NCBI RefSeq assembly: GCF_000720135.1
Contig: NZ_JOIU01000027.1
Location: forward strand, 1 to 64,000
Direction of reading: 5' to 3'
DNA: 64,000 bases
Origin: Streptomyces sp. NRRL S-1022
GTDB taxonomy: Bacteria > Actinomycetota > Actinomycetes > Streptomycetales > Streptomycetaceae
In this document: one piece after another, positions 1 through 35,678 of the stretch
How the letters are laid out: the number at the start of each line of letters is the position of its first letter
How positions within the stretch are numbered: the first letter of the stretch is position 1
Notes under the pieces: generated by a model
The model's input: the letters and a program-made list of their open reading frames with translations, nothing else
What the model was told of the DNA's origin: nothing
The model's database searches: none
Translations under genes and position numbers: made by a program

Positions 1-167
1 AGGACCGCCAGGAAATGACCCTCCGCATCCTGGAATGGCGGGGCATCCCGGTGTCCGACGCCGTCCGGGAGCGGGTGCTGGCCTGCACGGACCTCGGTCG
101 ACTGGAGGTCTGGGCCCAGCGCGCCGTCCACGCGGCCGAGGCGACGGAGTTGTTCACCGGCGAGTGA
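1..167 (+). CDS. 3' end of an unrecognised protein (partial)
   Basis: The frame is open from base 3 to the TGA at 165-167, giving the last 54 residues of a protein that begins before the window. Codon third positions are almost all G or C, as expected for a real Streptomyces gene. The tail has a charged helical look (ILEWRGIPVSDAVRERVLA, then CTDLGRLEVWAQRAVHAAEA). I associate such a tail with Streptomyces proteins of the Rpn/transposase-like nuclease type, but no catalytic motif is in view, so this is only a suggestion. The stop codon lies two bases before the inverted end of the repeat island. Confidence 0.7.
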   Translation, partial: DRQEMTLRILEWRGIPVSDAVRERVLACTDLGRLEVWAQRAVHAAEATELFTGE

Positions 168-168
168 G

Positions 169-310
169 CACGTGACCGTTGGGCCGCTCGCTTCTGGGCC
201 AGTGTCGTGCTTCCGCGGTCCGCGTCAAGGGCGCTGCGCGTCGCCTTCGGCGATGGGCCTCCGGCCCACCCTTGACCCGGCCCACTCCAGCCCGGGCAAG
301 AAGCGAGCGA
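169..310 (+). repeat. Left inverted end of the palindromic island
   Basis: It begins CACGTGACCGT and matches, as reverse complement, 1439-1579. It contains its own stem-loop: GTCAAGGG near 225 pairs with CCCTTGAC near 291, with a second small stem (GGCC/GGCC) in the loop. Conservation of this inner hairpin in both copies suggests selection on the folded DNA or RNA, or simply recent duplication. Confidence 0.8.
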
Positions 311-381
311 GCGACCCGGAACAGCGGTGGCCCAGCCCGGCACCGGGCCCTCGGGTGAGCCAAACGGCGCCGTCGGCGGGG

Positions 382-755
382 TGCGCGGTCGCGTCCCGCA
401 TGGACGCCGGGTGAGTTTGGCGGCTTACGGGTGAGTGGGGGGGGGTGGGTGCGCGGTCGCGCCTCGCCTGCACGCCGGGTGAGTTTGGCGGCTTACGGGT
501 GAGTGGGGGGTGGGTGCGCGGTCGCGTCCCGCATGGACGCCGGGTGAGCTTGGCGGCTTACGCGTGGTGGGTGGCTGCGCGGTCGCGTCCCGCATGGACG
601 CCGGGTGGCCTCGGCGACTTACGCATGGTGGGCGGATGCGCGGCCCCGCCTCGCCAGCACGCCGGGTGAGCTTGGCGGCTTGCGCATGGTGAGTGGCTGC
701 GCGGCCCCGCCTCGCCAGCACGCCGGGTGAGCTTGGCGGCTTGCGGCCATGGCCT
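382..755 (+). repeat. Six forward ~61-bp tandem repeats
   Basis: Units start with TGCGCGG at 382, 450, 515, 576, 637 and 698 (spacing 68, 65, 61, 61, 61). The best conserved core is GCCGGGTGAGTTTGGCGGCT or a close variant. Differences include CGCATGGACGC versus CGCCTGCACGC or CGCCAGCACGC. A degenerate seventh copy may follow at 740-775. G-tracts at 436-448 and 504-510 account for the longer first units. Confidence 0.85.
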
Positions 756-1020
756 GCGGGTGAGCCGGGCGGCTGCGGTTCCTTCCGGTACGGGAACGGA
801 GCCTGTCCGCTATCTCCCCGTCGTGATTGGCGGATTTGTGCCACGGGGTGGGAGGGAAGGGCAGGTCAGCGTGCGGAGGCCTCGACGGCTTGGCCCAAGT
901 CCGCCAATCGCCGATCTCGTGTGGCGTGGGGGGCCCATGGGCCCGACGGGGTCGAGTCCCCCCATCGACCCCCGACGACGTTCGTGCGGGGCCAGGGGGC
1001 GCCTTGCCGACGGGCCGCTC

Positions 1021-1385
1021 GCCGCCAAGCTCACCCGGCGTGCACGCGAGGTGGGAGTGCGCCCCCTCACCTGGCCTCAAGCTGCCGAACCCACCCGACG
1101 TGCAGACGAGGCGCGACCGCGCACCACCCACTCACCGCAAGCCGCCGAACCCACCCCGCGTGCACGCGAGGTGAGAGTGCGCCCCCCTCACTGGACCGGG
1201 AGCCGCCGAACGCACCCGGCGTGCAGGCGAGGCGAGACCGCGCACCACCCACTCGCCGCGAGCCGCCAAGCTCACCCGGCGTGCACGCGAGGTGAGAGTG
1301 CACCCCCCTCACCGGGCCGCAAGCCGCCGAACGCACCCGGCGTGCAGGCGAGGCGCGTGTGCGTTCCTGCCGACGATGCGAACGC
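1021..1385 (-). repeat. Six reverse ~61-bp tandem repeats with two alternating types
   Basis: Units start with GCCGCC or GCTGCC at 1021, 1081, 1141, 1202, 1262 and 1323. They are the reverse complement of the left array. Unlike the left arm, the units alternate: one type carries GCACGCGAGGTGAGAGTGC, the next GCAGGCGAGGCGCGACCGC or similar. The real period is therefore a ~121-bp dimer, showing that this arm grew by dimer duplication after the inversion or independently of the left arm. Confidence 0.85.
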
Positions 1386-1438
1386 AGCCGGCGTGAGGGG
1401 GCGGTGGGCCTGAGCCGGCCACTTTCCCTGGGCTGCCC

Positions 1439-1579
1439 GCTCGCTTCCACCCCGTGCTGGAGCGGGCCGAGTCAAGGGTGGCCCGGAGGGCCATCGCCGG
1501 AGGCGACGCGCAGCGCCCTTTACTCGGCTCGCGGAAGCACGACACTGGCCGGAGAAGCGGGCGGCCCCACGGTCACGTG
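1439..1579 (-). repeat. Right inverted end of the palindromic island
   Basis: This is the reverse complement of 169-310. It ends in ACGGTCACGTG, so the whole island is bounded by the same 11-base sequence in opposite orientations. The internal GTCAAGGG-type hairpin is kept with a few changes (one arm reads GTCAAGGG, the other CCCTTTAC). Confidence 0.8.
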
Positions 1580-1834: not shown

Positions 1835-1860
1835 CGAGTCACGAGGAGGTGGCGCCGGCG

Positions 1861-2922
1861 ATGGCGAGCATCAAGGATGTCGCCGCTGCGGCGGGGGTGT
1901 CCGTGGCGACCGTGTCGCGGGTGCTGAACGGGCATCCGTCCGTCAGCGCCGAGGCGCGGGCCCGGGTCATGGGGGCCGTGGCGGAGCTGGGGTACCGGCC
2001 CAATGCCGTCGCCCGGTCGCTGCGGACCGATCAGACGCACACCCTCGGTCTCGTGATCAGCGACGTGATGAATCCCTACTTCACCGAGCTGGCCCGCTCC
2101 GTCGAGGAGGAGGCCCGGGCGCTCGGGTACAGCGTGATCATCGGTAACGCCGACGAGCGGCCGGAGTTGCAGGACCACCACGTGCGCAACCTGCTCGACC
2201 GGCGGATCGACGGGCTGCTGGTGTCGCCCACCGACGGCGGGTCGCCGCTGATGCTCGACGCCGCCCGGGCCGGGACCCCCATGGTGTTCGTCGACCGGTG
2301 GATCCCGGGCGTCGACGTGCCGGTGGTGCGGGCCGACGGGCGTGCGGCCGTACGGGACCTCGTCGCCCATCTGCACGGGCTCGGGCACCGGCGGCTCGCC
2401 ATCATCGCCGGGCCCGCCGCGACCACCACCGGCAGCGAGCGGGTCGAGGCCTTCCGGGCCGCCCTCGCCGAGTACGGGCTCGCCCTGCCGGACGCCTACA
2501 CGGGGCAGGGCGACTTCCAGGCGGAGAGCGGGCGGCGGGTCACCGAGGGGTTCCTGGACCTGCCGGAGCCGCCCGAGGTCGTCTTCGCGGCCGACAACCT
2601 GATGGCGCTCGGCGCGCTGGACGCCGTACGCGCGCGGGGGCTGCGCGTGCCGGACGACATCGCGCTGGCCGCGTTCGACGACATCCCCTGGTTCGTGCAC
2701 ACCGATCCGCCGGTCACCGCGATCGCCCAGCCCACCGGTGAGCTGGGGCGGGCCGCCGTACACGCGCTGGTCGACCGGATCGAGGGGCGTGCCCCGCAGT
2801 CGGTGACGCTGCCCGCGCGGCTCGTCGTGCGCCGCTCGTGCGGAGCGGCCGCACCTCGGGACGCATTCCCCGCGCAGTCCCCCTCGCAGTCCCCCTCCCC
2901 AGTGCAAAGGAGCACGTCGTGA
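1861..2922 (+). CDS. rbsR: LacI-family regulator of the ribose operon
   Basis: A 353-aa LacI/GalR repressor. The N-terminal helix-turn-helix and hinge are clear (SIKDVAAAAGVSVATVSRVL, residues ~3-22), followed by a periplasmic-binding-protein-like effector domain (LGLVISDVMNPYFTEL) that ends near VVRRSC. I chose ATG 1861, with GAGGAGG at 1843-1849. A GTG at 1849 is in frame but overlaps that ribosome site. The gene sits first in an operon with transport and ribokinase genes, and its stop overlaps the next start (GTGA). Ribose as effector is inferred from the neighbours. The C-terminal tail is rich in Pro and Ser and is probably disordered. Confidence 0.85.
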   Translation: MASIKDVAAAAGVSVATVSRVLNGHPSVSAEARARVMGAVAELGYRPNAVARSLRTDQTHTLGLVISDVMNPYFTELARSVEEEARALGYSVIIGNADERPELQDHHVRNLLDRRIDGLLVSPTDGGSPLMLDAARAGTPMVFVDRWIPGVDVPVVRADGRAAVRDLVAHLHGLGHRRLAIIAGPAATTTGSERVEAFRAALAEYGLALPDAYTGQGDFQAESGRRVTEGFLDLPEPPEVVFAADNLMALGALDAVRARGLRVPDDIALAAFDDIPWFVHTDPPVTAIAQPTGELGRAAVHALVDRIEGRAPQSVTLPARLVVRRSCGAAAPRDAFPAQSPSQSPSPVQRSTS

Positions 2923-32579: not shown

Positions 32580-34310
32580 ATGCCGGAGACGATCGCCCCA
32601 GCGGTCCCACCGACCCCACCGGTACCGCTCCAGGCGCTGCTGGCCCGCGAGGACCTCGCGCTGCGGCAGATCGCCGGGCCGGCGGATCCGGGGATCGTGA
32701 TCCACTGGGCGCACACCTCGGAGATGGCCGACCCGTACCCGTACCTGCTCGGTGGCGAGCTGCTGCTGACCGCCGGCGTGCACATCCCGGAGGCGGCCGG
32801 CTCGGGCACGTACTTCGAGGACTACGTCTCCCGGATCGTGGCGGCGGGCGGCGCGGCCCTCGGCTTCGGGCTGGCCCCGGTGCACGACACGGTCCCGCGC
32901 GCCCTGGTCGCCGCCTGCGAGCGGTACGGCCTGCCGCTGCTGGAGGTCCCGCCGCAGACCACGTTCTCCGGCGTGGCCCGGGCGGTGTGGCAGCTGATGG
33001 CGCAGGCCCGGCTGGCGGAACTGCGCCGGGTCACCGAGGCCCAGCAGAGCCTCGCGGCAGCCGCGTCCCGGCCGGATCCGGTCCCCTCCGTCCTGCGCCG
33101 GCTGGCCCAGCGGCTGGGCGGCCGGGCGGTGCTGTACGGCCCCGACGGCACGGAGGTCGCCGCGGCGGGCCCGCAGACCCCGGAGGCCGCACGGACGGCA
33201 CTGGCGCAGCTGGCCGGGGTGGTGCGGCCGGCTCCCCCGGCACCGGCGGACCCCGGCCGCCCGCACCCCGCCACCGCACCAGGTCCGACGACGGCACCGG
33301 CCGGACCGGCGGCCCGGCCCAGGCCCGCCTCCACCGCACCGGCCACCCGCCCGCACCCCGCCTCCGCACCGGGCCCGGCGGCACCGCCGGCCGGCCCCCA
33401 GGGCCGGCCGCGGCCCAGCTCCACCGCACCGCTCGCCCCCGCGCCCGCGGCCTCCCCCACAGCCACAGCCGGCGCCGCCTCCCCCACAGCCGGCCGCCCG
33501 CATCCCACCTCCGCCACCGACACGTGCGGCCCGACGCACCTCGCGGTGTACGCGCTCGGGGCCGGTGCCGGGTTCGTGCTCGGGGTGGCCGCCTCCCGGC
33601 GGGACCCGGGGGACCACACCATCGCCTCCGTCGCCGCCGTGCTGCTGTCCCTGCTGACCGGTGAGCACCAGAGCGCGGCCGGGGCGGCCCGGTCCTCCGC
33701 GCTCGTGCGGCTGCTGCTGGGCGCCCCGCCCGAGCAGGTGGCCCCGCTGCTCGGCAACGCGCAGTGGCTCGTCGTCCACGCGCGGCCGGAGGCACAGGCG
33801 CCGGACGCGGTCGCCGCCTCCGCGCTCGGCGCCGCCCTGGGCTCACCGCTGGTCGACCTCGCCGACGACGTCGTACGGGTACTGGTACCGGCGGACCGGG
33901 AGCCGGCGCCGCAGTCGGGCTGGACACTCGGGGTGAGTGCCGCGGCCGGGCCGGCGCAGTGGCCGGCCGCCGACACCCAGGCCGCCCGGGCCCTCGCCCG
34001 GGCCCGCGCGACCCGCACCCCGCTGGTCCGGCACGCGGCCCGGCCGGCGCTGGCGGACCTGGTGCCGGCGGCGGACGCCGACACGCACGCCCGTACGCTG
34101 CTCGCTCCCCTCGCGGGGCAGGCCGCGCTCGCCGAGACCCTGCGCACCTGGCTGTCGCTGCACGGCAGTTGGGACCGTACGGCGGTGGCGCTCGGGGTGC
34201 ACCGCAACACCGTGCGGCAGCGGATCGCCCGCTGCGCCGCCCTGTTGGCCGCGGACCTGGACGACCCGGACGTCCGGATGGAGCTGTGGTTCGCCCTGCG
34301 GCGCACCTGA
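32580..34310 (+). CDS. PucR-family regulator with an unusual Pro/Ala-rich insert
   Basis: A 576-aa regulator. The N-terminal PucR domain (~10-150; HWAHTSEMADPYPYLLGGEL) is followed by a GGDEF-like middle region and a C-terminal helix-turn-helix (TWLSLHGSWDRTAVALGVHR then NTVRQRIARC). Between ~215 and ~315 a stretch of about 100 residues is almost only Pro, Ala, Thr, Arg and Gly, in repeats such as RPHPATAPG and RPRPASTAP. This splits the middle domain. ATG 32580 follows GGAGGGA by nine bases. PucR proteins control purine, amine and GABA catabolism, so it most likely activates the adjacent symporter/ureohydrolase/ThDP operon. Confidence 0.88.
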   Translation: MPETIAPAVPPTPPVPLQALLAREDLALRQIAGPADPGIVIHWAHTSEMADPYPYLLGGELLLTAGVHIPEAAGSGTYFEDYVSRIVAAGGAALGFGLAPVHDTVPRALVAACERYGLPLLEVPPQTTFSGVARAVWQLMAQARLAELRRVTEAQQSLAAAASRPDPVPSVLRRLAQRLGGRAVLYGPDGTEVAAAGPQTPEAARTALAQLAGVVRPAPPAPADPGRPHPATAPGPTTAPAGPAARPRPASTAPATRPHPASAPGPAAPPAGPQGRPRPSSTAPLAPAPAASPTATAGAASPTAGRPHPTSATDTCGPTHLAVYALGAGAGFVLGVAASRRDPGDHTIASVAAVLLSLLTGEHQSAAGAARSSALVRLLLGAPPEQVAPLLGNAQWLVVHARPEAQAPDAVAASALGAALGSPLVDLADDVVRVLVPADREPAPQSGWTLGVSAAAGPAQWPAADTQAARALARARATRTPLVRHAARPALADLVPAADADTHARTLLAPLAGQAALAETLRTWLSLHGSWDRTAVALGVHRNTVRQRIARCAALLAADLDDPDVRMELWFALRRT

Positions 34311-35255: not shown

Positions 35256-35678
35256 TCAGTGCCCACCACCTCCTCCGTGGCCGCCACCGCCGCCACCGCC
35301 GCCGTGGCCGCCACCGCCGCCACCGTGGTCGCCGCCGCCACCGCCGTGGTCACCGCCGCCGCCGTGGTCACCGCCGCCACCGTGGTCACCGCCGCCACCG
35401 TGGTCGCCACCGCCGTGGTCACCGCCGTAGCCGCCGTGGTCACCGCCGTAGTCGCCGTGGTCGCCGCCGTAGCCGTAGTCGTCGTCGTCATCGTCGCCCC
35501 ACGAGTTGTGGTCGCCGTGACGTCCGTTGTCGTTGTCTCCCCAGCTGCTGCTGTAGGAGCCGTGGTCGCTGTGCTCCGCGGCAGAGGCGGCCCCGGCTGT
35601 GCCGATCGCGGCTCCGCCGGCCAGCAGGAGGCCGGAGGCGGACAACGCGACAAGGCGCCTCGTGCGCTGTGATCGCAT
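35256..35678 (-). CDS. Secreted Gly/Asp/His-repeat protein
   Basis: A 140-aa protein with a Sec signal (RLVALSASGLLLAGGAAIG, cleavage near ASA-A) and a highly repetitive mature part. An Asp/Ser/Trp-rich start (SSWGDNDNGRHGD; NSWGDDDDDDYGYG) is followed by about a dozen GGDHGG-type repeats that end in nearly pure Gly with His. ATG 35678 follows GGAAGG. His plus Asp at regular spacing in a Gly backbone suggests binding of divalent metals (Ni, Zn, Cu) or a disordered wall-associated polymer. I know no characterised relative. The GC-rich repeat DNA gives long shadow frames on the other strand. Confidence 0.8.
   Translation of the reverse strand: MRSQRTRRLVALSASGLLLAGGAAIGTAGAASAAEHSDHGSYSSSWGDNDNGRHGDHNSWGDDDDDDYGYGGDHGDYGGDHGGYGGDHGGGDHGGGGDHGGGGDHGGGGDHGGGGGDHGGGGGGHGGGGGGGGHGGGGGH

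Follow-up and report, generated by a model that had tools for sequence, protein, structure and literature searches.

The genome of Streptomyces sp. NRRL S-1022 (G000) raises the question of what kind of DNA is represented by a non-coding, 1.4-kb nested palindrome that is near-identical on both strands. The palindrome occupies positions 169-1579 of the window, i.e., of the whole stretch analysed here (64,000 nucleotides, positions 1-64,000 of contig NZ_JOIU01000027.1 [C27] in assembly GCF_000720135.1). The original prediction had described a nested plan with inverted ends, six units in each direction and a centre with its own inverted pair. Self-comparison, TRF and unit alignment confirmed both this anatomy and its coordinates. 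The locus is composed as follows.

3..167, plus strand: 3' end of an unnamed upstream gene, with 54 codons left at the contig edge and the stop codon TGA at 165-167.
169..345, plus strand: left end, a long hairpin with a cloverleaf apex, identified by its inverted match to the right end, folding at -90.7 kcal/mol and found at other loci.
217..283, plus strand: left cloverleaf core (TCAAGGG..CCCTTGA at 225-275), 88.8 bits with covariance model R1, both window cores having belonged to the 29-sequence set used for building R1.
374..750, plus strand: six forward 61-bp units, from TRF and unit-by-unit comparison.
751..1010, no strand assigned: centre (~260 bp) with the inverted pair 824-835 / 899-910.
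1011..1373, minus strand: six reverse 60-61-bp units of two alternating subtypes, from TRF and unit-by-unit comparison.
1404..1579, minus strand: right end, an inverted copy of the left end, identified by the inverted match and folding at -97.2 kcal/mol.
1464..1530, minus strand: right cloverleaf core, 86.6 bits with R1.
1849..2922, plus strand: LacI-family regulator, a flanking gene outside the element and transcribed away from it.

A repeat search of the window returned inverted arms at 197-317 and 1430-1550 (87% complementary), and blastn of 175-342 against the window paired 175-312 with 1573-1435 (87% over 139 aligned positions). By eye, the inverted match reaches out to CACGTGACCGT at 169 and 1579. 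TRF reported a period of 61 with 5.8 copies at 379-746, a period of 60 with 5.7 copies at 1013-1353 and a period of 121 with 2.8 copies at 1021-1355. The six forward units start at 374, 442, 507, 568, 629 and 690, and the six reverse units have their outer ends at 1373, 1312, 1252, 1191, 1131 and 1071. Mean unit identity is 81% in the forward arm, 78% in the reverse arm and 74% between the arms. Alternate units of the reverse arm share 79% and 86% identity, compared to 74% for neighbours. The inverted pair of the centre consists of TGATTGGCGGAT at 824-835 and an imperfect complement at 899-910. As a single strand, 169-1579 folds at -1073 kcal/mol (-796 ± 10 for 20 dinucleotide shuffles), and 474 of the 568 pairs in this fold join the left to the right arm. 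Depending on where the boundary is set, the palindrome starts 1-7 bp past the TGA of the upstream gene, and it stops 269 bp short of the LacI-type gene. No Pfam match was obtained for the upstream gene tail, and neither Pfam nor NCBIfam matched its full-length relative (L041:4747-5589). Elsewhere in the window, tandem repeats were observed at 35266-35480 and 33257-33431, densely packed ones with short periods (9-39 bp) and one of 90 bp.

The window begins at a contig end, and its first bases, including the 3' end of the upstream gene, also precede an element on contig C58, as might be expected if the arrangement were an artefact of assembly or had arisen by one recent inverted duplication. However, similar elements lie within long contigs of other assemblies, e.g., the 9.4-Mb contig of G009, and the plan itself therefore cannot be put down to assembly. 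A simple recent inversion, against which the original prediction had already argued, is at odds with ends that are only 87% alike, with units that are closer within than between arms and with the recurrence of the plan in divergent species. This explanation is refuted for the class, and its probability is negligible. In gene tail and element half, window positions 1-529 closely match the start of C58 (L037; 89.5% over 534 aligned positions), after which the two contigs diverge. C58 continues to an RHS-repeat gene, as do the similar places L040 and L041, the latter with an Ntox28 domain.

Within G000, the left end also occurs on C58, on C19 (paired, with arrays) and on C8, and relatives in this and other Streptomyces genomes share the plan of inward-facing cloverleaf ends with opposed arms. 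The window end matched 15 of 41 genomes at E<=0.001 (weak matches counted, 20 candidates scored per genome), and the exact core pattern was present in 10 of the 41. Genome G006 holds 20 forward and 20 reverse cores, every pair of them inward-facing and 0.9-2.4 kb apart; a reversed control pattern had no match there. The 20 copies in this genome are homologous, with a mutual coverage of 44-99% (exception L092, 33-42%), and the best-aligned part of their two arms is 75-96% alike. Whole elements measure 0.5-2.5 kb and carry from one to about eight units per arm, the C19 element having about eight forward and two reverse units and the G009 element one unit per arm. Of the 17 elements or half-elements inspected, 10 showed an inverted central pair with a span of 78-89 bp. 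Among the G006 copies (L084-L103), we also observed two end subtypes in the combinations A-B, A-A and B-B, and additional short repeats outside the end appear to be present in some copies.

Comparison of orthologous gaps in related species revealed the element to be present, absent or decayed at two sites. Between a DUF397 gene and a LysR gene, it fills the gap from the TAA stop codon onward in G009 and G042; G140 has a few bases at this position and G115 a short stretch resembling both outer ends. Seven loci were examined for this place, of which L298-L300 were unused (neither DUF397 gene nor end), and 23 fetched loci of more distant relatives were left out. Behind a YceI gene, only G000 has an intact element; G020 and G016 have decayed versions and G127 a small hairpin, while locus L118 has no element and the same HATPase neighbour next. 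In the others of the 30 fetched loci, the HATPase gene was not seen directly behind YceI, and there were short end pieces at most. Relatives of the gene left of L092 yielded no useful empty site. Intact, decayed, hairpin-only and empty sites show that the element is either gained or lost as a whole and that copies decay.

The conserved hairpin noted inside each end proved to be the key part of the structure. Each end forms a hairpin of ~140-150 nt with a four-way junction at its apex, a cloverleaf of the form TCAAGGG-CGC..GCG-TCG..CGA-GG..CC-CCCTTGA, in which TCAAGGG/CCCTTGA closes the arms CGC..GCG, TCG..CGA and GG..CC. Alignment A1 comprised 26 of 75 distinct ends after a 93% similarity filter and removal of ends near a contig edge; L040 and L109 (broken or divergent) were left out. 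In A1, 95.4% of the cells pair, compared to at most 51% in slid controls, and changed cells are altered on both sides in 84 cases and on one side in 1. Shuffles reached the A1 values in 0 of 500 cases on four of the five measures and in 34 of 500 on the number of further pair types. The stems vary by lineage and much of the junction is invariant, in an alignment collected with the core pattern, which itself favours core conservation. The core alignment A2 corresponds to A1 minus L042 12513, L044, L052 and L112 (long first arms); the plasmid sequence L059 is also out. Among changed pairs there is almost no G-U. Together with the strong covariation, this suggests that the end hairpin pairs as DNA, while high G+C and the few independent lineages may contribute to the G-U scarcity.

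The scarcity of G-U also counts mildly against an RNA role for the palindrome, such as the dsRNA source proposed in the original prediction. Stop codons lie within -6..12 bp of 17 of 75 ends compared to 1.2 expected, as counted with a home-made ORF rule, one control window and per-family boundaries and with some copies orthologous. The 75 are the ends with an ORF-rule call, including both G009 and its orthologous site in G042; the left ends of the window and of L037 received no such call despite a stop codon 1-7 bp away. Called neighbours of 28 elements are convergent in 13 cases, co-directional in 14 and divergent in 1, compared to 8, 18 and 5 for the 31 gaps in the window. These positions and the -1073 kcal/mol hairpin would be accounted for by a function at the 3' ends of genes, as a terminator acting both ways, an mRNA stabiliser or a target of RNase III, with spread by recombination rather than transposition; transcripts entering from both sides also meet the core in the same sense. 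However, the tendency of neighbouring genes to face the element does not exceed background (52 of 75 vs 0.64 expected, p 0.20), the related species G140, which lacks the element, shows no obvious replacement, and the junction sequence is conserved across phyla, beyond a terminator's needs. At gathering score, Rfam returned only a tRNA in the window and only a tRNA and an SRP RNA in L196 among 20 further loci. Searching 150-1600 at E<=5 gave one chance-level match (E 4.8). No run of T was visible by eye behind the end hairpins in the sequences inspected. Overall, we consider a 3'-end function an unlikely explanation of the element. Candidate target-site duplications are no longer than 5 bp in the 12 gene-bearing elements compared and measure 4-9 bp in 25 Streptomyces elements, where the mean is 6.0 vs 5.4 by chance and the boundaries are uncertain by a few bases.

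Beyond Streptomyces, further occurrences of the core are spread over Actinomycetota and extend to some alphaproteobacteria. An exact-core search found at least 112 stretches, and the matches listed include records of Nocardia, Actinomadura, Phycicoccus, Janibacter, Leifsonia, Nocardioides, Mycobacterium, Pseudonocardiaceae and Caulobacterales. With strict filters, R1 identified 11 of 296 genomes of the phylum at E<=1e-4, including G000 and one more Streptomyces. An end or core was found in 10 of 72,556 plasmid records, one match covering 98% of the end and nine covering 32-48% around the core. Nine of these ten places were opened and had no annotated gene in common. A phage collection contained no match to the end, and viral contigs no exact match to one core pattern. 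On actinobacterial plasmids, solitary cores were observed at distances of about 0.2-0.6 kb from a MobC gene (L055, L061) or from a hypothetical gene adjoining a relaxase (L063). Two Caulobacterales MAGs (G470 and G471; L369-L372) have 23 and 18 core hits, mostly single, and no DUF222 match.

A recurrent candidate gene partner emerged in the Pseudonocardiaceae genome G455, one of 20 core-bearing genomes outside Streptomyces, with 31 core hits. In each of ten regions of ~4.5 kb, two cores separated by about 1.5 kb face inward and enclose a DUF222 gene encoding 379 aa; these ten genes are 87.6-93% identical to the copy in L231 (L231:6418-7557), and their flanking genes differ. The genome has 45 DUF222 matches in several subfamilies. 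Among the loci listed, a core accompanies 14 of 14 members of one subfamily, on both sides in 11, compared to 0 of 14 other DUF222 loci within flanks of about 1.5 kb; an inverted-repeat search of the flanks of these 14 core-less loci gave one weak pair only (L382). Furthermore, six of seven core hits in Actinomadura (G453/G454) lie beside DUF222, and in L365 and L367 inverted pairs enclose the gene. The G455 protein shows a C-terminal HNH-like motif by eye, and Pfam assigns HNH in a Streptomyces relative, L235. Genes like the latter occur in 14 of 392 Streptomyces genomes, and 5 of these 14, like L235 itself, have a core on the same strand at most about 1.5 kb upstream of the gene. All these cases represent one orthologous place next to a SEC-C gene, with a single end beside the gene and no pair. 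These ends are 73-86% identical to the left end of the window over 160-188 nt (L405 in two pieces). The putative kinship of the window element with the G455 elements is based on the core.

The DNA-binding part of the linked protein has a ParB-like fold; a Foldseek search against the PDB gave no match at E<=0.001, the top rows being membrane receptors with a TM of about 0.1. This fold, together with unit arrays on opposite strands, would suit a chromosome-folding or protein-binding array. Yet the arms hold anything from one to about eight units and copies differ between related species, which makes such an array very improbable.

In an all-vs-all blastp of 264 flanking ORFs, the large groups were DUF5753/HTH-type regulators (20) and DUF397 (5), both common in Streptomyces, or reflected orthologous places; the Pfam check covered two DUF5753/HTH-type and two DUF397 members. 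PD-(D/E)XK-type candidate partners, namely MTES_1575/DUF559-like (L036, L092, L177) and Vsr (L052, L234, L235), were set aside as too few and partly orthologous. The former are weak MTES_1575/DUF559 nuclease matches at L036:3798-4835, L092:4506-6500 and L177:3419-4414; the gene in L036 is also AbiEi-like according to PADLOC, and the stop codon touches the element in L036 and L092. One conserved Streptomyces place, seen at L052, L234, L235, L404-L408, L042, L053, L111, L144, L180 and L194, has a Vsr or type IV restriction enzyme-like helicase gene, in most cases with a cloverleaf end, in most with a SEC-C gene and sometimes with DUF222-HNH, which gives it the look of a defence neighbourhood.

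Cloverleaf inverted ends, many copies, presence, absence and decay at orthologous sites, abutment on stop codons and cores facing each other across a multi-copy DUF222-HNH gene are best explained together by mobility. The window palindrome is probably one copy of a dispersed, non-coding and non-autonomous MITE/BIME-like mobile element from a superfamily whose gene-bearing members carry DUF222-HNH. Of the original suggestions, a non-autonomous mobile element thus fits best, given the dispersed copies, the two orthologous sites and the gene-containing relatives. We infer that DUF222-HNH moves the elements, in a setting in which G000 and G006 have no DUF222 match, 5 of 19 other core carriers have none either, and in the rest mostly none is listed near a core.

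A nuclease or recombinase supplied in trans would recognise the ends in the form of extruded or single-stranded DNA hairpins; the most likely candidate is an enzyme of the DUF222-HNH kind, with its DNA-binding helical part and HNH nuclease. A nick at the hairpin could then allow the element to be copied elsewhere with no consistent duplication of the target, and surviving insertions would be those just behind genes. In the Streptomyces elements, the gene may have been lost and the unit beside each end amplified in tandem, giving the nested palindrome, and deletion between the arms during later decay would leave the small outer hairpin.

Alternatively, the element may be mobile or amplified while DUF222-HNH is, in some lineages, a mere passenger or a homing-type hitchhiker. 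The hairpin would then be spread by another enzyme (such as a REP/RAYT-like single-strand transposase) or by host repair, and the gene would occupy the cloverleaf element much as HNH homing genes occupy introns. This would fit the presence of cores in genomes that lack DUF222, namely G000, G006 (20 copies) and the two Caulobacterales, as well as the solitary cores on plasmids near MobC or relaxase genes or near tyrosine integrases and a resolvase. On the other hand, one DUF222 subfamily is tied to cores in G455 and again in Actinomadura, and gene and ends multiply together. We regard a passenger role as conceivable, though doubtful.

If mobility driven by DUF222-HNH is accepted, the elements could, tentatively, represent a new class of transposable element, in which an enzyme with a ParB/KorB-like DUF222 part and an HNH part recognises extruded end hairpins and inserts the element beside stop codons; the Streptomyces palindromes would be gene-less satellites and the solitary hairpins of Actinomycetota and alphaproteobacteria solo ends. 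The cloverleaf, which also occurs in a multi-copy, gene-carrying element in other soil bacteria, possibly marks undescribed jumping DNA, with the nuclease as its candidate partner. Such an outcome would provide a function and a mobility logic for DUF222-HNH genes, which are seldom named in the open-access literature searched, would add a structured four-way-junction end to the known kinds of transposon ends and would explain large palindromes of this sort. The elements also allow a direct test of an HNH nuclease with a ParB-like DNA-binding part as a transposase.

Several known systems invite comparison. REP sequences are built on a short (20-40 nt) palindromic unit with a tetranucleotide mark; the end hairpin described here, at about 140 nt, is larger than such a unit, and to our knowledge the cloverleaf is unlike known REPs. 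MITEs are non-autonomous inverted-repeat elements, gene-less relatives that share their ends with gene-bearing elements. Intrinsic terminators between convergent genes consist of a GC hairpin behind a stop codon, followed by a run of T. The REP13E12 repeats of mycobacteria were reportedly described by Gordon et al. in 1999. The available text of open-access literature, including PMC4681348, PMC3765725, PMC10589994 and PMC2817692, yielded no account of the palindromic element or of cloverleaf ends.

The hairpins behind stop codons resemble intrinsic terminators, from which the element differs in size, conserved junction, dispersed copies and gene-bearing relatives. REP13E12/HNH/DUF222 appears as a repeat category in mycobacterial reads (PMC10589994), and repeated DUF222/HNH genes are a common feature; in a comparison by description, cloverleaf ends go unmentioned in the accessible part of that source. 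The window element encodes no DUF222-HNH and would be a gene-less relative, not a member, of the 13E12 / DUF222-HNH repeats. As in MITEs, gene-less elements share inverted ends with gene-bearing relatives, copies are dispersed and relatives have empty sites; unlike in MITEs, the ends are structured hairpins and the units form a nested palindrome. Target-site duplications are candidates only. With REP/BIME repeats and their RAYT (Y1/HUH) partners, the elements share palindromic, extragenic, non-coding units, often in inverted pairs, with many copies and mixed end subtypes. They differ in the 140- to 150-nt ends with their four-way junction, in the overall length with unit arrays and in the linked gene, DUF222-HNH. 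By analogy, the element appears to work like a MITE or a giant BIME.
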